From assembly GCF_006442545.2 (NCBI RefSeq), contig NZ_CP083952.1, positions 2,163,501 to 2,227,500 of the forward strand: a stretch of DNA of 64,000 nucleotides, read 5' to 3'. Under the pieces are notes generated by a model, which was not told where the DNA came from, ran no database searches, and worked only from the letters and a program-made list of their open reading frames with translations. Both the position numbers and the translations under genes were made by a program. Origin of the DNA: Mesorhizobium sp. B2-1-8. Lineage in GTDB: Bacteria > Pseudomonadota > Alphaproteobacteria > Rhizobiales > Rhizobiaceae. This document shows positions 10,099 through 23,099 of this stretch, in pieces. The first letter of the stretch is position 1. Every line of letters begins with the position of its first letter.

Positions 10099-10569
10099 TG
10101 TTCACGATCCCCACTGCGCTGAAGCTCATCCAGCAAATTATCTATCCAGTAATGGCGCATCGACCCAGGGTCAAACGCAAGCTGATGGATATCAAGACCG
10201 AGGTCGGTCACTCATTCAAGATGTTCGGGCAATGGCTGGTCAGCGCGACCAGTGCAGGTCGTTTGTCAACCGTATCCGCAAACTAGTTGGTGGAGATGCG
10301 CTTGCTGGCGGGTGCTTTGGGATGAGTATCGGAAGCTGCACAAACTGCTGGTCCATCTCGTCGGCCGGGAGGAGCTGTGCGATGCGTCTTGCGACGTTCC
10401 ATAGACGGAGGGCATCTGTTGGTCCACTTGTAGACCTTGTAGGGTGCTCGACCGTTGGCCGCGGCGCCGCCAACGCCGCAGTTCGATCGACCGCATTTCG
10501 GCTGCCCATTTATGCCGGGCGAATGACCGAAAGGCTTTGACTGGAAGTCTGGCGGAAATCAGCAGCGTT
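10099..10569. other. Region without a convincing gene
   Basis: This stretch has several short overlapping open frames on both strands but none with a recognisable product, good ribosome site or coherent hydrophobicity. It separates the small membrane protein from the peroxidase promoter. Confidence 0.4.
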
Positions 10570-10587
10570 TCACGCTGGCTTCACGGC
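10570..10587 (+). promoter_or_regulatory. Paired TCACG motif, candidate SARP operator (peroxidase 1)
   Basis: TCACGCTGGCTTCACGGC contains two TCACG units starting exactly 11 bases apart. A possible -10 element, TATTTA, begins at 10591, and the peroxidase start is at 10627 after a GGGGGG ribosome site. SARP-type activators bind direct heptamer repeats at 11-bp spacing just upstream of -10. A near-identical copy (15 of 16 bases) lies at 16260. Confidence 0.5.
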
Positions 10588-10626
10588 GGGTATTTAAGAA
10601 GAATGTGAGGGTCGGGGGGAATAAGC

Positions 10627-12366
10627 ATGAATGCTCATCGCGGGGCCAATACCGCCGGGCCGGCTGTGGCGGGTGGTCAGGGCGTCGCTGCCCTTGGCGA
10701 TCCACGCCAGGTCCAGTTTCGCAATTTTGGCTGCGCTTCCGGCGCGGACGAAGCTAAGCTCTACAAAGGTCTGGGAGCCCCTTGGGCCACCCAGTGCATG
10801 TTTGCCAAACTGCTGCGCCGAATGAGCGCGCCACCCGCCGTAGCTACGAACACAACCAACGACCATATCCCCGCCGGATATACCTACCTCGCTCAACTGG
10901 CCGCACACGACATCATCCGCAATTCGTCCCTCAATCCTTTGCTTGCGGCCAACGAGGCGGGTCGTCGCAACGAGCGCGAGCAGGCACTCCTGCTTGATGT
11001 GCTTTACGGCGATGGACCATCATCGAATCCCGGTTTGTATGCCTTGCCCAAGGTTGGCGAAGCCGTCAGGTCGATGATGCGGACCGGGCCGATGGCATCG
11101 CCTTCAGCAACCGCAATGGCGATGCCGGCGGGCGCCTGTCCCTTTGCCTTGCGCGACTTGCCACGCTTCCAACCGGGCGATCTTAGCGACGGGTTCGAAA
11201 ATGGTCGAACTGACGTCTTGGTCGCGGACCAGCGTAGCGACGACAACGCCAATATTGCGCAGATGACGGCACTTTTCCTACACCTGCACAACGCAGTGGC
11301 CGCCGCACTTAGCGCAAGCGGGCTGCCTAGAGCGGACGTTGAACTGCCGGCAGGCGCATATCTTTTCGATCGGACACGGCGCGTGACGACAGCGATTTAC
11401 CGGAGCGTGCTGCAAAACGATCTGCTGCCGCGTCTCATCGCCAAGCCAATATGGGACCTTTACCAGGCTAACGGATTTCTGCCTTTGGTCGACACTCTTT
11501 CGCAAGGCGTTCCGAAAGAGTTTTCCCACGCGGCGTACCGCCTGGGCCATGCCATGATCAGGCTTTCTTATGTGTTCAATGATCAGCATCCGGAAGGGGA
11601 GGGGCTAGAGAACGTCTTGCTCAATCGCTCTTCATCGCGTCCGCACAAGTTCCCGATCTCTGAGCGCTGGATCGCTGACTGGTCGCATTTCTTCGAGATT
11701 GCGGGGTCCACGCCGCAGTTCAGTCGGCGTATCGGGCCAACTGTCAACGAAGTGCTGCTCAGTGCTTACACCATGCCGATCCTTTGCGTCGGCCCCGATT
11801 CCAAACCACTCGACCCAGCCGCGGCGGTTCTGTTGAACGAAGTCGACAAGGCGGCCCTGCCCGATCCAAATGCTTCCGGACTTTTGTTCAGCGATTTGGT
11901 GCGAGGCGCCATTGGCGGCCTTCTCAGGCTTGATGCTTTGATCGAAAAGCTGCCGCAGGCAGTGCTTGCAACCTCTCCGCTGCTCGGCGAGGCGAAGAAA
12001 CGGAGCCAGGGGATCCAATCGTGGCTTCAAGGGTCGACCGTGGCCTTCACCGCGGCTGAGTTGGCGGAATTGGGTGAAAATCCGCCGTTGTTGTTCTGGT
12101 TGCTGTTTGAGGCCGCGACCGAGCAGGACGGCCTGTGTTTCGGCGCGACCGGTTCGGTGATCGTGGGGGACGTCTTCATGGCAAGATTTGCAGCCTCGCG
12201 CGCCATGATCGAAGACGATCCAATTACGCAAGACCTCGCTGCCAGGTTGTTTCCCACTGGCATGCCCCGAACAATGTCAGAACTCATCCTCTTCGTTGCC
12301 ACCGCACTCAACCTGGGCAATGCATGGCCACGGTTTATCACCCCGCCCACAACTCCTGGAGCTTGA
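10627..12366 (+). CDS. Animal-type heme peroxidase family protein (peroxidase 1)
   Basis: A 579-residue protein of the animal heme peroxidase superfamily. The distal histidine region reads YLAQLAAHDII (about residues 90-101), and the proximal histidine lies in the classic AAYRLGHAMIRLSY (about residues 299-312). An inserted RNxxREQALLLDVLYGDGPSSNPG loop corresponds to the LDGSxxYG region. The distal motif lacks the usual Asp-His-Asp triad (AHD), so heme linkage and activity may be altered. There is no signal peptide, so it is probably cytoplasmic unless exported otherwise. It is followed 2 bases later by a 133-residue protein gene. Expected activity is H2O2-dependent oxidation of an unknown substrate. 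Confidence 0.85.
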   Translation: MNAHRGANTAGPAVAGGQGVAALGDPRQVQFRNFGCASGADEAKLYKGLGAPWATQCMFAKLLRRMSAPPAVATNTTNDHIPAGYTYLAQLAAHDIIRNSSLNPLLAANEAGRRNEREQALLLDVLYGDGPSSNPGLYALPKVGEAVRSMMRTGPMASPSATAMAMPAGACPFALRDLPRFQPGDLSDGFENGRTDVLVADQRSDDNANIAQMTALFLHLHNAVAAALSASGLPRADVELPAGAYLFDRTRRVTTAIYRSVLQNDLLPRLIAKPIWDLYQANGFLPLVDTLSQGVPKEFSHAAYRLGHAMIRLSYVFNDQHPEGEGLENVLLNRSSSRPHKFPISERWIADWSHFFEIAGSTPQFSRRIGPTVNEVLLSAYTMPILCVGPDSKPLDPAAAVLLNEVDKAALPDPNASGLLFSDLVRGAIGGLLRLDALIEKLPQAVLATSPLLGEAKKRSQGIQSWLQGSTVAFTAAELAELGENPPLLFWLLFEAATEQDGLCFGATGSVIVGDVFMARFAASRAMIEDDPITQDLAARLFPTGMPRTMSELILFVATALNLGNAWPRFITPPTTPGA

Positions 12367-12368
12367 AC

Positions 12369-12770
12369 ATGGCCGACCCCGTCGACAACCTGGACGCCTT
12401 TCCCGAACCGATCCAAACCCTTAACTTCGAGGCGACCGGCCGCAAGGTGGTGCAATGGGCGCAGGATCCGAGCACCCGTCCGCGCGACTTGGCCGAGTTC
12501 AAGGCACAACTGGATGGCCTTGTCGTCGTGCCCGAGCGCTACAAGGAAATTCAGATCGTTCAGGGATACGACCACGTCTTTTTCCTGCGATTGCCGCCCA
12601 ACAACCAGGTGACGCAATCGCAAAAGAAGCTTCAGACCGAACAGGGCGGCATGGCCGACTACGGCATTCCCGAATTCTATTTCGATGCTATTCTCGAAAA
12701 GGTGCCGTTCAACCGCGACAGCTTCTTTTATTCACGCATCGCCGACTACACCATTCGGGGCTGCCGATAG
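12369..12770 (+). CDS. Hypothetical protein downstream of peroxidase 1
   Basis: A 133-residue protein from the ATG at 12369, two bases after the peroxidase stop and with GGAG (~12356) in place. No family is recognised. It is acidic to neutral with no membrane segment. Its last ~40 residues are strikingly aromatic (seven Phe and four Tyr) and end with Gly-Cys-Arg. The tight spacing implies translation with peroxidase 1, so it may be a partner or a substrate; both are inference. Its 3' end overlaps the convergent regulator gene by 39 bases. Confidence 0.6.
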   Translation: MADPVDNLDAFPEPIQTLNFEATGRKVVQWAQDPSTRPRDLAEFKAQLDGLVVVPERYKEIQIVQGYDHVFFLRLPPNNQVTQSQKKLQTEQGGMADYGIPEFYFDAILEKVPFNRDSFFYSRIADYTIRGCR

Positions 12771-14795
12771 GGCTGGCCCCGGCAATGGCTCATGGCTGAC
12801 GACAATGCCGGCCCCGGCGAGCCCTCGGCGCAGTGTCTCGAGGGCCTCCGAGTTGCAGATCGGAAAGCTATCCATGAGCCACCTGCCGACATTGCCCGGC
12901 TCCGGAGGGGTATACCCAAACCACTCTGTCTTCAGTTGCGCTAAAAATCGGTCGGCCTCTTCGTGCGCGGCCCTCTCGTCGCCGAGCAGGGCGAGAGCGG
13001 CAGCCTTCCAGCCGCCGATATAGGACACGCTATCGGCGGCGCGCTCGGCCGCTTCGACGCAACCGGCATAGTCGCCAAGCAGGAACCGTACGCCGGCCTG
13101 ATAGCTCCATTGCAGTCGCGAAACGCCGAGCCCGGTCTGCAGCGCCAAATCGGCTATGCGGTGGGCGTTCTCGCGATCATCGCAATAAGCAAGCCCGAGA
13201 GACGCAGAGACCAACGTCCAAGGGTCATTGCCATTGAGTTCGCAGGCCAGGAGGAAGCTGATGGCGGCCTGCTGTGGCATGCCGTTCATCGCGTACGACC
13301 ACGCCAGATGCAGCTGGCTTCGAGAATCTATCGGATCGATCTGGGTCGCTTGTTTGGCAAACGTCAGCGCTTCCGCATGGCGTTCGCGCCGACGGCCAAT
13401 GCCAGGAAAGATCAGATGCCGCGAATTGATGATGCCGGCCAACCCTGCATGAGCGGCAGCGAACTGCGGCGACTCTGCGATGATCGATCTGAAGAGCGCC
13501 TCGGCGCGTTCTTCAGACTCAGGGCGCCACTGAAAGATAAGTTCCTGCGCTCTCAGCCAGCGGTCGAACTGCTCCAGCGACAGATCCGGGATGCTGGCGA
13601 TCTGAACCAGCCGTTCGGACGACATGCTTACGCCCAACGCGACCGCAATGCGGCGGATGAGGCGTTGTTGGGTCTGGTACCACTGGCTGTTCTCGATGAC
13701 GAACTGCTCGCTCCAGATGTAACGCCCCGTGGCGAGTTGCTTGAGCGTCATACTGACACGCAACGTCGGCCCCTCGAGAAAAGCGGTTGCCTCGATGCAA
13801 TAGGCATTCTCGGTGAGGCGGGGCGGTTGCCCCTCCCATTCCATCACCGCCCAGTCGCGGAACCGCACCAGGGACGCGACAAGTTCACTGCGGAAAATCC
13901 GCACCGCGTTGCGCGCGCGCACCGACCCGCTCACCAATTCGAACTCCCGCACGAACAACAGCACGCCGGCGGCAGGCTCCTGCAGCCTCGGCGCCTGTGA
14001 CCCGAGGCCGCTGGCGGGGGTGGCCACATGCCCCTTGCTCGCGCCACCGATTATGCCGAGCTTGATGTCACTGACCAGCGCTTGCGTGGCGGCTGAAGGT
14101 TCGCTGTCGAACTCTGTTTCGAGCAGGTCCCAAAGCCCGTTATAGGCTCTCAAGGCGGTTGCCTGGTCGCCCATCCGAGCCGACGCTTCCATGATGGCCC
14201 GGCACCCGACCTCGTTGGTCGGATCGAGATTGTGCAGGGCTTGCCCGGCTCGCTTTAGCGCTGGCCAGTCCGCGGCGGCTTTGGCCATCGCTTCCAGACA
14301 TGAGATAAATTCGTCCTGGAGACATTGCCGCTGGACGAGGACCCAATTGCGAAACGAAGGGTCGATGTCGTCCAGGCCATTGAGAAAGCTTTCGGCGACA
14401 CGCTGCCGCTCCAGAAGGACGGGCGGAATCCGGCCAGCTTTCAGATCGCGCCTGATCTCACTCACATCCACCGTGACGTGCGATTGCTTCAGCGTCACGT
14501 TGAGCCGGTCTCCGAAGAAAACTCCTTCGACTTCGGCCAGGCAGGCCTTGAGATCGACTACAGTTTGCCTGAGCGAGGCCCTTGCACGCGCCTCGTCCGA
14601 TTCACTCCAGAGCAAGCCGCAGATACGCTCGCGTGTTTCAAAGCCGTGGGGGCTCAGTGCAAGATAGGCAAGGACCGCGCGCGACTTGCGGTTTCTCACG
14701 GCGACCTCCCGCCCAAGTTGGCTTAGCGCTACCTGGTCAAGTGTGGTGACGCTGATCAGCGGCGCAGTCCTCGTTGGGGATTCGTGCCCGATCAT
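12732..14795 (-). CDS. SARP/BTAD-type transcriptional regulator with TPR domain
   Basis: A 687-residue regulator. Residues ~15-100 form an OmpR/SARP-like winged helix (SRAVLAYLALSPHGFETRERICGLLW…ARASLRQTVVDLK). Residues ~105-240 form a bacterial transcriptional activation (BTAD) helical repeat. A middle domain (~275-400) has the FlgO-like pattern often joined to this family (LRVSMTLKQLATGRYIWSEQF). The rest (~415-660) is TPR-like. It lies 17 bases downstream of the YcaO gene on the same strand, so they are an operon. The paired TCACG motifs upstream of both peroxidase genes have the spacing expected for its binding sites. Confidence 0.85.
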   Translation of the reverse strand: MIGHESPTRTAPLISVTTLDQVALSQLGREVAVRNRKSRAVLAYLALSPHGFETRERICGLLWSESDEARARASLRQTVVDLKACLAEVEGVFFGDRLNVTLKQSHVTVDVSEIRRDLKAGRIPPVLLERQRVAESFLNGLDDIDPSFRNWVLVQRQCLQDEFISCLEAMAKAAADWPALKRAGQALHNLDPTNEVGCRAIMEASARMGDQATALRAYNGLWDLLETEFDSEPSAATQALVSDIKLGIIGGASKGHVATPASGLGSQAPRLQEPAAGVLLFVREFELVSGSVRARNAVRIFRSELVASLVRFRDWAVMEWEGQPPRLTENAYCIEATAFLEGPTLRVSMTLKQLATGRYIWSEQFVIENSQWYQTQQRLIRRIAVALGVSMSSERLVQIASIPDLSLEQFDRWLRAQELIFQWRPESEERAEALFRSIIAESPQFAAAHAGLAGIINSRHLIFPGIGRRRERHAEALTFAKQATQIDPIDSRSQLHLAWSYAMNGMPQQAAISFLLACELNGNDPWTLVSASLGLAYCDDRENAHRIADLALQTGLGVSRLQWSYQAGVRFLLGDYAGCVEAAERAADSVSYIGGWKAAALALLGDERAAHEEADRFLAQLKTEWFGYTPPEPGNVGRWLMDSFPICNSEALETLRRGLAGAGIVVSHEPLPGPALSAAPNGVVGDA

Positions 14796-14812
14796 CCCCG
14801 CAACTCACCGCT

Positions 14813-16120
14813 CTACATAAGATCGGCGCGGCCACTTGGGCCGGCCTGATCGATCAGGCAACGAAGCCGACGTGACTGGAACGGCGACGGAAAAGGTTGC
14901 AGCCCAGGGACGAAGACTTTGGCGACGGGAATGTCAAACATCGGCGTGGTCAGATCCACAGCATATATGCAGTATTGCTTTTTAAGCATTTCGCCAACCA
15001 AGGATAGGAAATTCAAGTCCTTTTCATCATTTTTGTGCATCAGCAGGCCACTGGAAAGGTGTGAGACGAGGTCAGTGTCCATTGCGCTGGCCTCGGAGCG
15101 CTCCGACTGCAGGCGCTCGACCTCGTCGCGTTTCTCATCTCCGTGCTCTGCGCGCTTCATCGCCATCAGGTCGATCGCTAACTCCATCTGACACATTTCG
15201 AGCAGCGCCGCCCTGAGCGCGTTACCCGCATCCAGCCTGCAAGCGAGACCGACTGCCAGGTGGCGACCATCCGCGTCGAAGGATAGCGCGGCGGTCACGG
15301 GCGCGGGGAACTCACCCGATATGTCGAGAAACTGGGTGCATCTGCCGAGCTTGTCCTGCCTTATGCGTGCAAGCAGATCGGGCACACCCGCGCGGGCAAG
15401 CGCTTCCAGTCCGATTAGCCGGCCGCCGCGCCTGCTGCGCCACCACGCGGCAGCCGCATCTCGCTCGATTGTTTCCAGCAGCGCCGAGGTCAGGGCAGCC
15501 TCGTGGGTTATCCCCGCGGCGCATCCGCAACTGGTTACCCAGGCGCTTCGGTTTGCACCACGAATGAAAAGTGTCTCGGGCAAATAGCCCTGTCGTCCGT
15601 CGTCCAGCCGGCGTACGGGCACCCACCGGTCACTTTCGCCAAAACCAGATTGTACACAGAAATCGTCCAGGTGTTCAGCCAGCCGAGCGTCCTGCCAATG
15701 ACTTATACCATCTGCTATCGTGCGGTTCATCGTCCCGTGCGGCACATGCCATTCGCTGTGATATTCGATGCCCTCGCCGATGCAGGCCTCGAACGCACGC
15801 CCCGGGGTGAGGCCGACACCGCTGAAGCTGGCAGAAGCGGCCGAGGGCGAACCAGCCCAGTTGCGGTTTACCTGCGCACCAAAGAAGTAAAGTCCGGGGG
15901 AATAGCGGGCATGCAAGCGGAACAGATTGCCGAAATTTGCCGCAGCGTGCAGTAATCCACGGCGGTTATTTGCTGCCATCGGGTCGGGATCTGTATCGCT
16001 AGGGCCCAGGTAGCCAAGCGCTCCGAGCAACCCGCGCGCCATTGCATCCTGTTCAGGCGCCAATTCTTGCGGCTGTGAATAAAACCGTGCTGCCAGTTCA
16101 AACGCATTAACGGCGGTCAA
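14813..16120 (-). CDS. YcaO-domain protein
   Basis: A 435-residue protein with the YcaO fold. The segments are SGVGLTPGRAFEACIGEGIEY (~98-118), SCGCAAGITHEAALTSALLE (~200-220) followed by TIERDAAAAWW, and the C-terminal AVDLTTP…IPVAKVFVPGLQPF (~385-410). The two glutamate-bearing stretches correspond to the ATP/Mg site of YcaO enzymes, which phosphorylate amide backbones during azoline, thioamide or amidine formation in RiPPs. No E1-like partner (TOMM C protein) is visible nearby and the C-terminus lacks the PxPxP tail of cyclodehydratases. The TTG start at 16120 follows a GAGG site. Its substrate is unknown. Confidence 0.85.
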   Translation of the reverse strand: MTAVNAFELAARFYSQPQELAPEQDAMARGLLGALGYLGPSDTDPDPMAANNRRGLLHAAANFGNLFRLHARYSPGLYFFGAQVNRNWAGSPSAASASFSGVGLTPGRAFEACIGEGIEYHSEWHVPHGTMNRTIADGISHWQDARLAEHLDDFCVQSGFGESDRWVPVRRLDDGRQGYLPETLFIRGANRSAWVTSCGCAAGITHEAALTSALLETIERDAAAAWWRSRRGGRLIGLEALARAGVPDLLARIRQDKLGRCTQFLDISGEFPAPVTAALSFDADGRHLAVGLACRLDAGNALRAALLEMCQMELAIDLMAMKRAEHGDEKRDEVERLQSERSEASAMDTDLVSHLSSGLLMHKNDEKDLNFLSLVGEMLKKQYCIYAVDLTTPMFDIPVAKVFVPGLQPFPSPFQSRRLRCLIDQAGPSGRADLM

Positions 16121-16506
16121 TCCACCATCCTCGCTGTTGAAGCAAACCGTTCCCTACCGACTGCCACTTTCGCCTGACGATTTTGATCGGGTCAACAAAA
16201 CGTTGCGTGCAAGACGATCCGAACTTCACAAAAACACGGGAGCCAAAGACGTCATCATCTCACGCTGGTTTCACGCTAGTTGGTCTAATGGTCAATTCAG
16301 AGAGGTCATCTCGGAGTTGGACCTCCCAAGCCCCATCGCGACGCCTGCGGATCGGCGCGAACTCGCATCCTCCCGGCGCGCTGCCGCGGGGCCAAGACCG
16401 GATGGGGTCGGTTTTGTGCCTCGCGGCCCGCTGGAGTGGCAACGGCAGATTCTTCGACACAAAGCCATCCTGCGACAAGGCAGGGCGGCAAGATATGGAG
16501 ATCACA
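16121..16506. promoter_or_regulatory. Divergent intergenic region between ycaO-like and peroxidase 2
   Basis: This 386-base region separates the minus-strand YcaO-regulator operon from the plus-strand peroxidase. It holds the second TCACG pair and otherwise only short open frames without recognisable products. It probably contains the promoters for both directions. Confidence 0.5.
16260..16277 (+). promoter_or_regulatory. Paired TCACG motif, candidate SARP operator (peroxidase 2 / ycaO)
   Basis: TCACGCTGGTTTCACGCT has two TCACG units 11 bases apart and matches the motif at 10570 in 15 of its first 16 bases. A TCTAAT hexamer at 16284 could be a -10. It sits 140 bases from the ycaO-like start and 230 bases from the peroxidase start, so it could serve either direction. 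Confidence 0.5.
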
Positions 16507-18060
16507 ATGGTATCGCATGGCACACCGCCTCGGGGCATTGATGCGACACGATCGCCGCTGTTTGAAGGCCGTTTCGGCCGCATGTTCCGCAATCTGGCGC
16601 CCGCCTCGTTCGGGGCAAACGAGGCACAGAACCGGCGCAATCTCAAGGCGCTCGGCACGGCCATGTCCGCTGGCATTGACGAACCGAAAGATGGGCCTGA
16701 TGCCGAGGAAAGCGGCATCCCTGCGCTCTACACTTATTTTGGACAGTTCGTGGATCACGACATCACCTTTGATCCCGTCAGCACCCTACGCAAATCGCTT
16801 GACCCGGATGGCCTGGTGGATTTCCGCACGCCAAGCTTCAACCTGGACAACGTCTATGGGCGCGGCCCGGCCGACCAACCATACATGTACACAAGCGAGG
16901 GCCGATTCCGGCACGGGGAAGCCTTGACGGGAACGGGCGGCCACTCCGGACACGATCTGCCCCGCTTCGGCGGACGAGCGATCATCGGCGACCCCCGCAA
17001 TGACGAGAACAGTCTCGTCTCCCAGCTTCAGGGGCTGATGCTCGACGTGCACAACCGGATGCTCGATGACAATCCGGGGTTGGACTTTGAAGCCGTTCAG
17101 CAGCTTGTCCGTTTCCACTACCAATATGTCGTCCTGAACGACTTTCTGGCCCGGATTGTTTCGGCGCCAATCCTCGACGCCCTCAGGACGGACGGCCACT
17201 TTGATCAAAAGCTCTTACGCTACTTCCACTGGCGCAACCTGCCGTTCATGCCGGTGGAGTTTTCGGTTGCCGCCTACAGGCTTGGCCATTCGATGGTCAG
17301 GCCCGGTTACCGGCTGAATAATGACAAACTGCTGCCGATCTTCCCGCGCGCCCACGAACCACACGAAGAAGCTCTCACCGGATTTCAAGCTATGAGACCA
17401 GGGCGCGCGCTGGATTGGGGTCGATTTATCGATGTTGACGAGCGTGCCGGTGGAACAGATCCCGGCACAAGCGACCCGGCAAACAAACGTCGCCTGCAAT
17501 TTGCCTACAGGATCGACACATCTCTCGTAGGCTTCCTGCACGACCTACCAAAAACCGTGGCGGCTGACCCGCCGGCGTCGCTCGGTGAGCGCAACCTCTT
17601 GCGGGGCTGGCTGCTCGGCCTGCCGTCCGGCCAGAGCATTGCACGCGCCATGCGGATCGAGCCCTTGACCGATGAAGCCATCATCATAGGCAAGGCAGTG
17701 GACGCTCCAGAGGATGGAGATGTCGTGGGGCCAATTATCAAGGCGGTCAATGACAACGGTGGGGACGGCAACGCGTTCGCCGGCAACTGTCCGCTTTGGG
17801 CTTATGTTCTGGCCGAGGCGTCGGCAAACAGGAGCGACATTCCAATCCCTGTCACAGGGGGCGGCACCCGCTCGACGCCGCAACTTGGACCGGTCGGCGG
17901 TCGCATTGTCGCGGAGGTCTTCCTTGGGTTGCTGTTTGGCGACGGCAGATCCTACCTGTCGCTTGATCCTTTGTGGAAGCCCGTGACTGGAGCGGGCTTC
18001 AGACTCAAGGACCTGGTCTCCTACGGGCTCGGTATGGGGCCGTCGCTTCACTACCGGTAG
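16507..18060 (+). CDS. Animal-type heme peroxidase family protein (peroxidase 2)
   Basis: A 517-residue animal heme peroxidase from the ATG at 16507, chosen because GGAG (16497-16500) is well placed; the frame is open further upstream but without family similarity. The distal site is canonical: YFGQFVDHDITFD (~75-87) with the Asp-His-Asp motif used for heme attachment and calcium binding. LDNVYGRGP, the proximal AAYRLGHSMVRPGY (~250-263) and NDxxFAGNCPLW near the end are also present. No signal peptide is seen. It is better conserved than peroxidase 1. It is divergent from the YcaO-regulator operon and shares a promoter motif with peroxidase 1. Confidence 0.92.
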   Translation: MVSHGTPPRGIDATRSPLFEGRFGRMFRNLAPASFGANEAQNRRNLKALGTAMSAGIDEPKDGPDAEESGIPALYTYFGQFVDHDITFDPVSTLRKSLDPDGLVDFRTPSFNLDNVYGRGPADQPYMYTSEGRFRHGEALTGTGGHSGHDLPRFGGRAIIGDPRNDENSLVSQLQGLMLDVHNRMLDDNPGLDFEAVQQLVRFHYQYVVLNDFLARIVSAPILDALRTDGHFDQKLLRYFHWRNLPFMPVEFSVAAYRLGHSMVRPGYRLNNDKLLPIFPRAHEPHEEALTGFQAMRPGRALDWGRFIDVDERAGGTDPGTSDPANKRRLQFAYRIDTSLVGFLHDLPKTVAADPPASLGERNLLRGWLLGLPSGQSIARAMRIEPLTDEAIIIGKAVDAPEDGDVVGPIIKAVNDNGGDGNAFAGNCPLWAYVLAEASANRSDIPIPVTGGGTRSTPQLGPVGGRIVAEVFLGLLFGDGRSYLSLDPLWKPVTGAGFRLKDLVSYGLGMGPSLHYR

Positions 18061-18126: not shown

Positions 18127-18176
18127 GTTTATGACCCTTCCTTCCAAAAGCTTACTTCGTCTTGCGAGGAAAGAGA

Positions 18177-19469
18177 ATGTCTTTGCCAATATTTGGCTAT
18201 TTCTACCGCTTTCTTTGCATCGGCGTGTTGTGCATGGCTGCTGTAGGCTGCATGCCTGAAGACGGCTTCCGTCGCTATGCGGGCGCTGTTGGCCCTGATC
18301 TTTATTCCAAGCAAACCGTGGCCAACACTGCCTTGCTCAACGCTTACACCGAGAGCATTTGCACTCAAGCAGGACTGGCGTCCGGCGGGCAATGCGCCAT
18401 CAGGACGACCACTGACTGGAAGAACTTCGTCGATATGGGTCTCTACGATATCGATCAACGCTGCGACTCTTTCTTGGATGGGCTCTACTACAAAGCTAAG
18501 ACCAGCGACTCGATCCTGGCCCAGGTCGCGGACACTGGCAGTTTTTCTGCTGCGGTTCTGGATGCAACCTCGTCGTCGGTACCTTCGATAAAGATCGTTG
18601 CCGCCGCCTTCGGCCTGGCCGAAAACACTTTTCGCAACACCAACAAGACCTTGCTGGAGGCGCTAGACGCGACGACGGTCAAGTCCCTAGTTTTCCGCCG
18701 TCAGCACGACATCAAGCAAGAAATCTACGGCACGACGGTCTGGAACAAGCCGCAGGCGCTGCACGCTCTACGCACCTATCTACGCGTCTGCATGCCGTTT
18801 GCCATTGAAATGGAAGCCAATGCGGTGCTGACCACTGCGCAGCGGACGGATGAACCTGGCAAGTCATACATCACATTCGACTCGAACAATGCCCCACTGG
18901 GTGGCGGCGCCAAGGTCAATGAGGGTCGCATTCGGCCGCGCCCACCCGTGAAATCTTGGGCGTCCGTCAACACTAGCGGCATTCCGATCGACCTGCCCAC
19001 TGCCAAGGCCATCCAGAAAGCGCTGTGCTTTCCTGACACAGCGCCGGTCGGCAAACCGCAGGCTAATGGCGAATATGGTGCCCAGACCGAGGCCGCACTT
19101 AAGATCTTCAAAGCCGCAAACGCACGTAAGTACGACTTGAAAGAATGGCGAGATATAAAGGTGGTCCTTGATACATCCGACTTGGGTGTTCTACGTGACA
19201 GCAAGGATTGTGGCGTTGAGCAAAAGAATTACCTGGAGAGACACCTTTCCACAGATAGCACTTTCAACAAAGCCTTGACTGTATTTCTCAGGAAGAAATA
19301 TGGCGCGGAGATACCCGATAACGCGTCGCTCGATGCCTTGAGAAAATATATCGTGAAGTACAAAACTGATCCAAAGGTCAGCCCAAAAATCTCTTCCGAT
19401 CCGGACGGAATGTTTCTCGATCAGATAACTCCCGATTTTTACAATTTATTCAGCGGGTTCAGCAGTTAG
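18177..19469 (+). CDS. Lipoprotein with peptidoglycan-binding-like segment
   Basis: A 430-residue protein from the ATG at 18177, which has a GAGGAAAGAG ribosome site. It begins with a signal peptide ending in the lipobox AAVGC (Cys ~25), so it should be lipidated and envelope-anchored. Residues ~275-320 (DLPTAKAIQKAL…NGEYGAQTEAALKIFKAANA) resemble a PG_binding_1 repeat. The remainder is not recognised. It lies 30 bases before the muralytic gene on the same strand, suggesting a shared envelope role. Confidence 0.7.
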   Translation: MSLPIFGYFYRFLCIGVLCMAAVGCMPEDGFRRYAGAVGPDLYSKQTVANTALLNAYTESICTQAGLASGGQCAIRTTTDWKNFVDMGLYDIDQRCDSFLDGLYYKAKTSDSILAQVADTGSFSAAVLDATSSSVPSIKIVAAAFGLAENTFRNTNKTLLEALDATTVKSLVFRRQHDIKQEIYGTTVWNKPQALHALRTYLRVCMPFAIEMEANAVLTTAQRTDEPGKSYITFDSNNAPLGGGAKVNEGRIRPRPPVKSWASVNTSGIPIDLPTAKAIQKALCFPDTAPVGKPQANGEYGAQTEAALKIFKAANARKYDLKEWRDIKVVLDTSDLGVLRDSKDCGVEQKNYLERHLSTDSTFNKALTVFLRKKYGAEIPDNASLDALRKYIVKYKTDPKVSPKISSDPDGMFLDQITPDFYNLFSGFSS

Positions 19470-19499
19470 CTTGGGAATTTTTCTCCAAGGGAGATGGTT

Positions 19500-21473
19500 A
19501 TGTACTACCAGTTCAAGCTGCCAACTCGTTTGAAGGTCAGCCCTGATCTTGCATCCGCTGACGGCGATGAGGTTCTTCCGGATGAAATTGGTTTTGCAAA
19601 CGCCGAGAATGGGAATTGGGTCCAACTGACAATTTATAGCCAGCTGGACAAACCCGCCACCGGCTGGGCCCGCAAAAGCGGCGACGATGGGCAGGTTCGG
19701 CTGGTTGAGGTCGCTGCCCCACCACGATTAGAATTCGGCATCTGGTCGTTTATCAAAGGATGTATCGACGCAGAGTTCTGGATCAACGGTCAAGACAAAA
19801 ATAGCCCGTTCTTCGTGGCGGCGGACTACCTGATAGCTTGGGCTCTCATCGAGACGAAGAACAAACCTGGCAACATCGGACCCAAGACATCCCCCGGAGA
19901 CGGAACCGGACCTTTCCAACTAACCACCACGGAATGGGCTACATTCCTGGCAGACCCGATAGCAGCTGACTACTCAGCGGCCAGCCGCGATATTGGCCTC
20001 GATCAAATTGCCGGGGCGGCATTTCTCGCCCGCAAGGCGATGTCCGATATGTCAGCCGCAATCACGCAGAACGATGCGGCGGCCGGCGTGACGGATACGC
20101 AAACCGTCGCGGGCCCCTACATTCCGGCCTATATCGATGTTCTCCTGGTTCACATGTTCGGCTTGCCAACAGCCAAGAGTTTTCGAACTGTGAAACTTGC
20201 CGGCCAGGGCGGGACCGCGGTTGACGACGTTCTCAAGCAATCGTTCAGCGATGCGGATGTGCAAGCGTATCTCAAGACACGGGACAATGTTCTGAAGGAT
20301 TGGGATTCGGGTGTCATCGAAACGGTCGACGGGGCGATCGTCAATGTCCAGAACCTGTTGGCAGCCGCTTTCGCCAAGGCGTTTGCACTGATCCAAGAGC
20401 AGGCTCCGGAGGATCTGCCAAAGGCTGATGGTGTGGCGTCATGGTTTGCGATTGCCGACAACGAGCGGGTGGCTTGGGAACCTTTGGGCGATGAGACAAC
20501 ACCCACCGCTCAAACACGCATTCGAGGGTATTTCCAGTCGATTGGCCAGCCCCTGCGCGATGCGGATGCCATACCACCATGGTGCGGCGCCTTTGCCGGA
20601 TTTTGCGTGAACACTGCCAGTCCAGTTCTTCTCAAGACGATCAAGGGAAATCCGCTAAGCGCGGGCAGTTGGCAATCCTTCGGCAACGAGAGCATCCAAC
20701 TTGGTGATCCCAATCCACCGCGGGGTGCGATCGTCGTGCTTTCGCCGGACAAGAATTCGTCCAGCGCCAGCCATGTCGGCTTCTTTTCACGCTATCTGGG
20801 CTCCGACAACGCGCAAGTCGAATTGCTCGGCGGCAACCAGAGCGACCGCGTGACTTTGACCAAGTTTGATCGCTCGAAAATAATCGTCATCCGCTGGCAG
20901 AGCGCGCAGAAGTCTGTCGATAACAATGCCGGTGACGCAGCGCTAGGAGCCGCCGACGCTGGACAGTTCAGCACGTTGCTCGATTTCATCGGGCAGTTCG
21001 AGAGTGGCGACAATTACAACGCCTATTTTGCCCATTCCGGGAACACCAACAATCCTGCATTGGTGGGCATGACCCTGCGAGACATCCTGATTTTTCAGGA
21101 CCAGCTGGTCGCTCGCCACAAGATCTCTTCCGCCTGCGGCAAGTACCAGATTGTCAGGAACACCCTGCGGGGCCTGATAACCCACGGCGCCATCGGACCT
21201 GCCGACACTTTCTCGTCAGGCAACCAGGACCAGTTGGCAATAGCGCTGATGAAGGAACGAGGCCTCGGCGCCTTCCTCAGTGGCAACATGTCGGAAGATC
21301 AATTCGCACTAAATCTGGCCAAGGAGTGGGCCTCCATGCCGGTGCCGATTGCTACCAAAGGCCAGTTTAGAAACGTGAAGCCGGGCGAAAGCTACTACGC
21401 GAGCGACGGGGTGAACAAGGCGCTCACGACGGTTGAAAAATTCCGGGCAGCGGTAAGAAGCGCTCAGAAATAG
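19500..21473 (+). CDS. Multi-domain peptidoglycan hydrolase-like protein
   Basis: A 657-residue protein; the second Met (19500) is preferred because AAGGGAG lies at the proper distance. No signal peptide is seen. Residues ~110-215 look like a degenerate lysozyme/transglycosylase fold (ALIETKNKPGN…GTGPFQLTTTEW). Residues ~350-460 fit a CHAP/TIGR02594-type cysteine peptidase (PPWCGAFAGFCVN, PRGAIVVLS, SHVGFFSRY). Residues ~490-650 look like a phage-type lysozyme (FIGQFESGDNYNAYF…SACGKYQI). Three putative muralytic units in one protein recall phage endolysins or secreted antibacterial toxins. How it is exported is unclear. Confidence 0.7.
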   Translation: MYYQFKLPTRLKVSPDLASADGDEVLPDEIGFANAENGNWVQLTIYSQLDKPATGWARKSGDDGQVRLVEVAAPPRLEFGIWSFIKGCIDAEFWINGQDKNSPFFVAADYLIAWALIETKNKPGNIGPKTSPGDGTGPFQLTTTEWATFLADPIAADYSAASRDIGLDQIAGAAFLARKAMSDMSAAITQNDAAAGVTDTQTVAGPYIPAYIDVLLVHMFGLPTAKSFRTVKLAGQGGTAVDDVLKQSFSDADVQAYLKTRDNVLKDWDSGVIETVDGAIVNVQNLLAAAFAKAFALIQEQAPEDLPKADGVASWFAIADNERVAWEPLGDETTPTAQTRIRGYFQSIGQPLRDADAIPPWCGAFAGFCVNTASPVLLKTIKGNPLSAGSWQSFGNESIQLGDPNPPRGAIVVLSPDKNSSSASHVGFFSRYLGSDNAQVELLGGNQSDRVTLTKFDRSKIIVIRWQSAQKSVDNNAGDAALGAADAGQFSTLLDFIGQFESGDNYNAYFAHSGNTNNPALVGMTLRDILIFQDQLVARHKISSACGKYQIVRNTLRGLITHGAIGPADTFSSGNQDQLAIALMKERGLGAFLSGNMSEDQFALNLAKEWASMPVPIATKGQFRNVKPGESYYASDGVNKALTTVEKFRAAVRSAQK

Positions 21474-21503
21474 AAGACGATGGGTCCTGGGGGAGGGCGA
21501 CAC

Positions 21504-23099
21504 ATGCTTGAGGGATTGACGTCACGGTTTGTGGCCAAATGTTTTGCCGTAGCTGGTGTCGGACTGTTGGTCGTGTGCCTCGCACTTGCCGGATGGCAGA
21601 GACTGCACGGCACCAGCGATCCAACCGAAGCCGAGTGCGAGGCCAATCTCTTGCCCGCCGTCGCGCCGCAAGGTGAGGCTTTGATGAGAGCTGGCAAACT
21701 GCAAGTGTTGGGCGTCTGGCCCCACAAGACGTCCATAAACCGCAGTATCTGCCTAGCCATCGCCGGCGTGGTTTCAGAATCTTCCGACATAGGCCTAGCG
21801 GATGACGTCAACCGAGCGCAAAAGGCGCGTGACGATGCGCAAGCCAGCTATGAGACTGCGGCTCTGTCTTCAAGAGACGCTGCGTGGGACAAGCTGCAAA
21901 AGGCCAACACGACCCTGTCAACGGCGCTTGCCGCCGCGGCTGGTCTACCACAGCCGGTCCCCTTGTCGGTCTTCCTGAATGGCAACGTCGTTCCCAATTT
22001 GACGGTCAAAGCCTATGCCAAATGGGCACGCCAGATTGTTCTAATCCCACTGATGGTACCGCCGAGTGCTGAGGAAAGCGGCGCAGGCTTCTGGCGCGAT
22101 CTCCTGGGCGCCAGGCCAACAGACGGAAACAATACCTCCGCCGGCGCGGATAAGCCCAAGGTCGGCGAAAAGGCCGTTTCTGTCGGCCTTTCCCGCAGCT
22201 CAGCCACAATGCCCGAACCGATGGGGCGCACTGCCCTCACAGTTGTGATCTACGATATGGTAACCCTGTGGGCCGGCATCCTTGCATTCCTTTGCTTTGC
22301 CATCAGTTTCTGCGGTTTGGCACGACATACGACGATGCTACGCGACAACAGCCAAACCGGCAAAGCGTCGCTGTTGGCCTCTGATGCTGTGGCGGCAGCG
22401 CTCGCGGCTGATAGCGAAGCAACAGCAAAGGCAAAGGTTGCAGCCGCTGCCGCCGAGAAAGCCAAGAGCGACGCCGACGCCGCCCAGGCTGCTGCCGCCG
22501 CCGCAGATGCGGCCACGAAAACCGCCGCGACCGACAATGCGGCGAAGGCCGCGGTCGCGCTGACGGTTGCTGCCGGTGCCGTCACAGCCACAACTGCTGC
22601 AGCGAATGATGCTGCGGCGGCCTTGACGGCAGCTCAAACCACGGCGCTCGCAACGGCAAAGACAGGAGATGTTGACCAGCCGCTGGGTCCATACAGCCTT
22701 GCTCGGACGCAAATGGCGTTCTGGATGATTCTCACGATCGCCGGGTTCATTTTCATCTGGCTCAGCATGGGTATTTACATTGGATTGATCACCAGCGGAA
22801 TTCTTGTACTGCTAGGGATTAACGCCACGTCTGGGCTGGCTGCAATCAGTCTTAACGACGAAAGCGACAAAACCAGCGTGTCAAAATCGTTCTGTCAAGA
22901 CATCCTGAACGATGGTGACGGGCCGGCGCTGCATCGCATCCAAGCGGTGGCCTGGACCGCGATTCTAGGCATTATTTTCATATGGAACGTCTTCTGGAAT
23001 TTCGCTTTCATCAATTTCGATACCAACCTGCTTCTGCTGATTGGCGTGGCGCAAGGCATGTACCTGGGCTTCAAATGGAAGGAGGCACCGGCCAAGTAG
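21504..23099 (+). CDS. Alanine-rich membrane protein of unknown function
   Basis: A 531-residue protein from the ATG at 21504 with a strong GGGAGG site (31 bases after the muralytic gene). It has an N-terminal membrane helix (~12-32), a soluble domain (~35-245), a second helix (~250-275), and then ~110 residues of almost pure Ala/Lys/Asp/Thr repeat likely to form a long helix or coiled coil. Three more helices follow near the C-terminus (~405-435, 430-450, 490-525). No family is recognised. Its position suggests that it works with the lipoprotein and muralytic protein as an envelope-spanning unit; this is inference. Confidence 0.7.
   Translation: MLEGLTSRFVAKCFAVAGVGLLVVCLALAGWQRLHGTSDPTEAECEANLLPAVAPQGEALMRAGKLQVLGVWPHKTSINRSICLAIAGVVSESSDIGLADDVNRAQKARDDAQASYETAALSSRDAAWDKLQKANTTLSTALAAAAGLPQPVPLSVFLNGNVVPNLTVKAYAKWARQIVLIPLMVPPSAEESGAGFWRDLLGARPTDGNNTSAGADKPKVGEKAVSVGLSRSSATMPEPMGRTALTVVIYDMVTLWAGILAFLCFAISFCGLARHTTMLRDNSQTGKASLLASDAVAAALAADSEATAKAKVAAAAAEKAKSDADAAQAAAAAADAATKTAATDNAAKAAVALTVAAGAVTATTAAANDAAAALTAAQTTALATAKTGDVDQPLGPYSLARTQMAFWMILTIAGFIFIWLSMGIYIGLITSGILVLLGINATSGLAAISLNDESDKTSVSKSFCQDILNDGDGPALHRIQAVAWTAILGIIFIWNVFWNFAFINFDTNLLLLIGVAQGMYLGFKWKEAPAK

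Follow-up and report, generated by a model that had tools for sequence, protein, structure and literature searches.

The locus in Mesorhizobium sp. B2-1-8

We analysed a stretch of 64,000 nucleotides from Mesorhizobium sp. B2-1-8 (contig NZ_CP083952.1, positions 2,163,501 to 2,227,500; the window, in whose coordinates its features are given), in which a YcaO gene is grouped with genes for a SARP regulator, a protein of 133 amino acids (aa) and two animal-type heme peroxidases. The gene families and layout that an initial annotation had read at 10570..18060 were confirmed, and the gene limits were right except for the start of the second peroxidase. The first peroxidase, px1 (10627..12366, + strand, 579 aa), matched PF03098 with 52 bits against a cut-off of 25. 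Its stop codon (12364-12366) was followed by the ATG at 12369 of the gene for the 133-aa protein (12369..12770, +). This small protein belonged to no known family, was predicted to be folded and is the candidate substrate or carrier. The two genes converged on a pair on the - strand, which comprised the SARP gene (12732..14795), with a BTAD domain (PF03704, 49.8 bits against 22.1) and a C-terminal TPR-like part, and the gene for a predicted ATP-dependent amide-activating YcaO enzyme of 435 aa with a TTG start (14813..16120; PF02624, 148.5 bits against 25.7). The 3' ends of the small gene and the SARP gene overlapped by 39 bp on opposite strands. The second peroxidase gene, px2 (~16495..18060, +; PF03098, 35.4 bits), was divergent from YcaO, and its start was probably near the ATG at 16495 rather than the TTG at 16183. 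Two SARP-type boxes were located on the + strand. Box 1 (10568..10585), a TCACG-N6-TCACG direct repeat with an 11-bp period, was 41 bp before the px1 start codon, and box 2 (16258..16275) was in the divergent YcaO/px2 intergenic region. The YcaO was the sole PF02624 match in the 6.87 Mb genome.

Conservation of the module

The loci were found by searching genomes with a profile of the small protein, and the retrieved loci in turn supplied the profiles for peroxidase, SARP and YcaO. All small-gene loci from those searches other than the window gave a set of 47, with the tandem genes of one locus, L130, counted once (L and G numbers are our handles for loci and genomes). The linkage recurred in these 47 other loci and is therefore not due to chance; it is conserved across Hyphomicrobiales and beyond. 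YcaO was present in 46/47 loci at a distance of 0-5.5 kb, SARP was convergent with the small gene within 450 bp in 44/47, and a peroxidase was present in 40/47. In 39 of the latter it was within 250 bp on the strand of the small gene, so a px1-type peroxidase and the small gene were usually adjacent and co-directional (39/47). All four gene kinds occurred together in 37/47. Co-occurrence in other alphaproteobacterial genomes and a conserved short open reading frame (ORF) nearby had been named in the initial annotation as checks on the module, and both were found, the conserved partner being the 133-aa gene after px1. Absence of linkage in relatives, or a YcaO of the TfuA type, had been named as evidence to the contrary. 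The linkage was conserved, and TfuA (PF07812) was absent from this genome and from 32/40 module genomes. In the 8/40 that had it, the nearest TfuA was ~8 kb from YcaO (G351), and the rest lay on a different contig or were separated from YcaO by 90 kb or more. A TfuA-type YcaO was rejected for this genome, which has no TfuA.

The module is widespread though patchy. The small-protein profile matched 17/146 genomes of the genus, 28/397 of the order, 4/337 of the class and 6/349 of the phylum (own genome included, searches overlapping), and the phylum-level matches were all from the same order. Full-length YcaO orthologs at 79-88% identity came from Mesorhizobium where the source was named. Relatives at 30-37% identity came from Bradyrhizobium, Nitratireductor, Amaricoccus, Roseibium and others, and their loci kept SARP and the small protein and often a peroxidase. 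A YcaO match was found in 62/297 genomes of the family, mostly weak. Among 16 YcaO loci from the family search (L144-L159), ten had this small protein (family 1), four had a second family described below, L157 was a variant and L158 had neither. Another set of 17 loci had the family-1 protein in 15, the two without it being L041 and the partial locus L046. YcaO was ~5 kb away from the small gene in L141 and L142.

Neighbour ORFs of 55 neighbourhoods were clustered, and the 60 largest of 322 clusters were re-read after removal of frames overlapping core genes. The remaining clusters were lineage-limited or generic. A family of 170-209 aa was divergent from YcaO in 10 loci of some lineages only, in the position that px2 has in the window (six Bradyrhizobium loci L035-L040, the Nitrosovibrio metagenome-assembled genome locus L041, L120, L123 and L124; for example L035 9318-9827 -, L041 5508-6083 -, L123 12016-12567 +). 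This undescribed family had no Pfam match in the three members scanned. An EamA transporter gene was observed 5' of px1 in Mesorhizobium loci such as L107. In L130 (7435-8339), two tandem small Cys-tailed genes followed one peroxidase, the only tandem pair seen.

The small protein and its penultimate cysteine

No Pfam or NCBIfam family was found for the small protein in 13 members scanned (one chance-level match), and no NCBIfam precursor model matched any of the 13. No relative by sequence was found in the PDB. The AlphaFold2 model was compact, with a predicted local distance difference test (pLDDT) score of 87.9 and a predicted template modelling (pTM) score of 0.80, and ended in a helix and a short tail. 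It had no fold match in the PDB, where the VIA-align part compared four chains only. No signal peptide was evident.

The conserved feature of the protein was its tail, with the pattern R-x-[GA]-[DE]-Y-x4-C-x. In the window this is RIADYTIRGCR (12735..12767, +), with the Cys132 codon at 12762-12764. Pro38, Arg123, Tyr127 and Cys132 were invariant in 42 diverse sequences with a mean column identity of 23%, and Gly24, Pro76, Tyr98, Pro101, Tyr104 and Asp126 were nearly so. Cys was penultimate (position -2) in 65/65 extracted small genes, a set that includes loci found through YcaO; among L201-L203, which were added later, L203 had it at -3. Cys was also penultimate in 38/40 database homologs, and the two exceptions had a C-terminal extension (P0041) or were aberrant at their end (P0059). 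As controls, SARP had Cys at -2 in 0/70, YcaO in 0/73 and the peroxidase in 1/65. The residues flanking this Cys were variable, as expected if the thiol alone matters. The tail pattern occurred in 129/14,275 ORFs of the loci, many of them related or duplicated, and 128 of these were small-protein matches.

The small gene was also under the strongest purifying selection in the module. The ratio of nonsynonymous to synonymous substitutions (dN/dS) between the window and five Mesorhizobium loci was 0.007-0.037 for the small protein, compared with 0.17-0.26 for YcaO, 0.11-0.16 for px1, 0.075-0.10 for px2 and 0.11-0.12 for SARP (0.23 for the split SARP gene of L164). We considered whether the tail was conserved as a by-product of the overlap with SARP. 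This was rejected, because dN/dS was 0.008-0.035 without the 13 overlapping codons and most loci outside the Mesorhizobium type of the window had no overlap there. The whole small protein thus appears to be held constant, which speaks against a diversifying antimicrobial peptide.

A weak similarity to NHLP leaders was obtained with hhalign in the middle of the protein (probability 70%, below usual certainty; 52 columns, 13% identity), against a comparison set of six NHLP proteins from two genomes. The score of 32.1 exceeded those of all 100 column shuffles, which reached 13.9 at most. The L105-type subset alone gave 12% probability, and the second family scored 10.1. The small protein was not assigned to NHLP, since none of 13 members matched TIGR03793 or TIGR03795 at E<=1.

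The locus might instead make a classical bacteriocin of the ribosomally synthesised and post-translationally modified peptide (RiPP) class, in which a proteusin/NHLP-like N-terminal leader precedes a short C-terminal core that is cut off and exported. We regard this as quite improbable. It would account for the weak resemblance of the central part to NHLP leaders, and YcaO with SARP is typical of specialised metabolism. However, the Cys tail is constant across genera and not diversifying, no double-glycine cleavage site is apparent among the aligned rows shown, and the precursor models failed for all 13 members. The EamA transporter of L107 and the S8 protease found in L157 speak for this reading, but no transporter or protease is conserved across lineages. 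A classical RiPP toxin was not supported, as the whole small protein is near-invariant and predicted to be folded.

A second Cys-tailed family

In L154, L155, L156 and L159, a different ORF ending in Cys-x was located between the peroxidase and SARP or YcaO (the L154 and L159 proteins were 94% identical). All 10/10 database homologs of this second family end in Cys-x, with the tail MAYLLGTILLRRCR identical in eight of them. The second family had no detectable homology to the first (hhalign probability 0.3%), and a model of lower confidence (pLDDT 71.5) had no PDB fold match below E 0.001. The Mesorhizobium variant L157 (7973-13206) had YcaO and, in the SARP position, a class III nucleotide cyclase with TPRs. 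It also holds an S8 protease, a DUF1501 protein and a 217-aa protein ending in GCR, which is weaker evidence because it was picked by its Cys tail.

The YcaO enzyme and the heme proteins

E116, E216, E219 and E308 of the YcaO were present in 57/57 aligned sequences, E119 in 55/57 and Q311 in 56/57. We take these six residues to be the ATP-binding Glu/Gln motif of YcaO. Together with the PF02624 match, they place the protein by its sequence in the YcaO superfamily. The solved YcaOs nearest by sequence were LynD and TruD.

His94, Arg203 and His308 of px1 were kept in 49/49 aligned px1-type sequences. They presumably act as the distal His, the Arg and the proximal His of a peroxidase, and px1 was placed with the animal heme peroxidase superfamily on this basis. 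No signal peptide was evident by eye. The initial annotation had taken two peroxidases as the core of the module. This was not borne out, because among the loci scanned a second peroxidase was beside YcaO only in the window and in L160-L164, all Mesorhizobium. Three more + strand genes were observed 3' of px2 (18162-23099). One resembles TIGR02594/CHAP below the cut-off, and the first two also adjoin px2 in M. intechi.

In L114-L116, L145, L043 and L045, the small gene was adjoined by homologous predicted heme proteins with one CxxCH motif and not by a peroxidase (L114 8422-10095 +; L145 12016-13782 -; L045 3766-5406 -; L043 12850-14460 -). L114-L116 are among the seven peroxidase-less loci of the 47, and L145, L043 and L045 came from YcaO-led searches. 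L043 also has a peroxidase ~3 kb from YcaO. The CxxCH protein had no NCBIfam match in four members and no Pfam match in two, and represents an undescribed family. From these arrangements, the heme partner appears to be exchangeable between a peroxidase and an unrelated CxxCH protein.

The SARP regulator and its predicted operator

The BTAD domain identified the regulator as a predicted SARP. For the OmpR-type DNA-binding domain that SARPs have at the N terminus, it scored 13.5 bits with Trans_reg_C, under the cut-off of 26.2. The SARP gene of M. intechi was split between two frames (L033 11302-13367; L164). SARP sites are heptameric direct repeats, classically with 11-bp units, in the portion of PMC10972967 that was available. 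TCACG-N6-TCACG was taken as the predicted SARP operator because it has this 11-bp spacing.

The same element was found in the px1 and YcaO promoters of six aligned Mesorhizobium loci, as TTTCACGCTGGTTTCACG and, on the other strand, TCTCACGCTGATTTCACG. The window boxes each differ by one base from it, and box 1 and box 2 are each present in five other Mesorhizobium loci. TCACG-N6-TCACG occurred exactly twice in the window, in the px1 and YcaO promoters, and 1/100 window shuffles also reached two boxes. This count is not independent, as the word was read off two aligned promoters and then tested; the counts in other genera are. With up to two mismatches allowed, the longer pattern had three copies in the genome. 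The third, two-mismatch copy was elsewhere (G000:C1:4276060-4276077).

In 72 module loci (1.15 Mb) there were 110 boxes. Nine other spacings gave 0-6 copies and seven other words gave 0-7. Of the 110 boxes, 51 were between -60 and +350 relative to the mapped start of px1, YcaO or SARP. In 66 loci there were 104 boxes. The other 59 letter orderings gave a median of 1, and the next highest count was 18, probably the same box shifted. The box was found somewhere in 53/66 loci. In 33 control loci (131.5 kb), two boxes were found, one of them in the YcaO locus L158. A box was near the peroxidase or small-gene start in 25/47 loci and near YcaO in 10/47. Some of the distant boxes precede the small gene where no peroxidase was mapped, or genes upstream of px1 such as the amidase of L112; others are unexplained. 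A direct-repeat operator with 11-bp units upstream of the targets is thus predicted from these counts, which show a strong enrichment of the box across the loci. A box was also observed near a 108-aa protein and a helix-turn-helix regulator beyond YcaO (L123 12765-13597; L120), which are possibly further members of the regulon.

The box common to both units also fits co-regulation alone. SARP would then run an oxidative-stress or redox regulon that includes YcaO by coincidence. YcaO would act on a substrate from outside the locus, such as a ribosomal protein, and SARP would be regulated or counter-regulated by the small protein, whose gene converges on that of SARP in 44/47 loci. The class III cyclase with TPRs in the SARP position of L157 is in line with this. 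However, if YcaO chemistry is not involved, it is difficult to see why two dissimilar families beside YcaO both conserve a penultimate Cys, and YcaO accompanied the small protein in 46/47 loci. We therefore consider co-regulation alone very unlikely. A defence system was rejected as well, since none of the five locus proteins had a match in PADLOC.

Proposed mechanism

We propose that the locus encodes a protein-modification system, controlled by SARP and dependent on YcaO, that acts on the penultimate Cys of a folded carrier, and we judge this moderately probable. The initial annotation had suggested that the YcaO and the peroxidases make or modify a peptide. The linkage, and a near-universal penultimate Cys suited to YcaO, support a module for peptide or protein modification, in which the modification would take the following form. 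SARP would bind TCACG-N6-TCACG at the px1-small and YcaO-SARP/px2 promoters and switch on both units. The 133-aa protein would fold into a carrier whose C terminus forms a short tail, and YcaO with ATP would activate, by phosphorylation, the backbone amide next to Cys132. Most likely, the Cys132 thiol would then close a thiazoline, with a thioamide formed via a sulfur donor as the alternative. The product would probably be oxidised by px1, or in some lineages by the CxxCH protein, either from thiazoline to thiazole or by a Tyr127-Cys132 or other Tyr-based cross-link. The heme enzyme would thereby take the role that a flavin dehydrogenase has in classical azole clusters. Tyr127, Tyr98 and Tyr104 are candidate sites of peroxidase cross-linking. 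Cross-linking is not required, however, since these residues are conserved where no heme partner is present.

Several observations weigh against this proposal. No modification of the small protein was seen. The YcaO scored 122.5 bits against 219.25 for the SagD-type NCBIfam model TIGR03604, and its end, GPSGRADLM, like the last 22 residues of the YcaO C-termini listed, had no PxPxP. A C-terminal PxPxP is a mark of azole-forming (thiazole/oxazole-modified microcin, TOMM) cyclodehydratases. The L047 YcaO is Pro-rich further in from its C-terminus. By these sequence features, the YcaO falls outside the typical azole cyclodehydratases. Among the conserved neighbours there was no leader-binding partner; no C protein/ThiF-like protein or flavin dehydrogenase stood out in the 25 largest, or 60 of 322, neighbour clusters, in which no targeted hidden Markov model (HMM) search was made. 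No protease or exporter was conserved throughout the loci in the neighbour clustering. The loci are related by descent, so the counts over them are not independent. YcaO was present in L120 only as two short pieces (10707-11133; 34 and 36 bits), where SARP, small and peroxidase genes were also found. L106/L204 (G377) kept px1 and the small gene and lost SARP-YcaO except for a C-terminal SARP remnant. No Cys-tailed partner was seen in L158, and neither SARP nor a small protein in L041, whose contig ends 1.5 kb after YcaO. As for the operator, 59/110 boxes were outside -60 to +350 of the mapped starts, and 13/66 loci had no exact box.

The heme step gave further points of this kind. The peroxidase was absent near the small gene in 7/47 loci, and in 8/9 genomes with peroxidase-less modules PF03098 was absent altogether (one of the nine was only 72% complete). 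An obligatory peroxidase was rejected on these grounds. L125-L128 lacked a neighbouring heme partner, and PF03098 was missing from their genomes, yet they kept YcaO-SARP-small, and Tyr127 and Cys132 persisted there without either heme protein. By eye, the CxxCH proteins of L114 and L145 appear to carry an export signal, whereas none is evident in the small protein. As L125-L128 indicate, an oxidative heme step is therefore common and not universal.

These loci bear equally on another possibility, in which the heme enzyme does the work itself and, instead of modifying the small protein, uses it after YcaO modification as a subunit, cofactor carrier or maturation partner. The adjacent and co-directional px1 and small genes (39/47) and a small protein that is near-invariant, predicted to be folded (pLDDT 87.9) and unlike a diversifying peptide are what one would expect of such a pair, and a swappable, unrelated heme partner could be served in the same way. 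Modules that persist without any heme partner would be difficult to understand on this basis, as would CxxCH partners that look secreted beside a small protein that does not. We consider it unlikely.

Within the proposed protein-modification system, the nature of the product can be specified further. The whole folded protein may be the product, which would define a new YcaO class with a protein-borne cofactor at the penultimate Cys, built with an exchangeable heme oxidant. This is a tentative suggestion, for which we hold the chances to be below even. The group would be redox-active or metal-binding, such as a thiazole or a heterocycle with a Tyr-Cys link, and would serve the heme enzyme or a SARP sensor. 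The combination of YcaO, a TPR regulator and a Cys at -2 would then have arisen with at least two dissimilar carrier families. If this is right, the reach of YcaO chemistry is widened beyond peptide antibiotics to include a conserved folded protein, and one group of bacterial enzymes related to the myeloperoxidase type gains a function. The locus points to a YcaO pathway with a ready-made candidate substrate, a single predicted site, an unusual oxidant in the animal-type heme peroxidase and a predicted operator.

Comparison with known systems

MauG provides a precedent for a protein cofactor, tryptophan tryptophylquinone (TTQ), that is made by a heme enzyme. Here too, a peroxidase-type heme enzyme is proposed to carry out the last step in the modification of a folded protein. 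However, the enzyme family is unrelated, a YcaO step is proposed to come first, and the cofactor here is a proposal only.

The azole-precursor systems NHLP and NHLP-Burk (TIGR03793, TIGR03795), in the part of Haft et al. 2010 (PMC2887384) that was available, likewise have a protein-like leader of ~100 aa beside a YcaO-type cyclodehydratase, and the profile similarity was weak. NHLP-Burk members can end in Cys or Cys-Cys, whereas here Cys is penultimate and not last. There was no HMM match, the genes are single except for the L130 tandem pair, and the fused cyclodehydratase-docking scaffold is replaced by a heme peroxidase and SARP. YcaO-TfuA thioamidation clusters, to the extent of the available text of PMC8120280, have a YcaO that acts on a ribosomal product, as is proposed here, and also occur in Bradyrhizobium. 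They differ in their precursor and in TfuA, which this genome does not have, and the words 'peroxidase' and 'SARP' occur 0 times in PMC8120280. Stand-alone-YcaO azole clusters such as that of bottromycin (PMC4603692, available in part) also have YcaO without a C protein. In contrast to them, no radical-SAM enzyme or methyltransferase was among the conserved neighbours, and the locus has a 133-aa protein predicted to be folded and a proposed heme oxidant.

The initial annotation knew of no described pathway with this combination. Searches of the open-licence PMC literature for YcaO with a peroxidase, SARP or Cys tail gave no description of it either among the papers listed, judged mostly by title or the start of the abstract. 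One RiPP-like case of YcaO with a peroxidase (PMC8776678) was unrelated, as judged from part of that source. Finally, the regulation was compared with SARP-controlled clusters of Streptomyces, as far as they are covered by the same portion of PMC10972967. The regulator here is an alphaproteobacterial BTAD-TPR protein and the repeat word is different (TTCACG), whereas the direct-repeat operator with 11-bp units upstream of the cluster genes is common to both.

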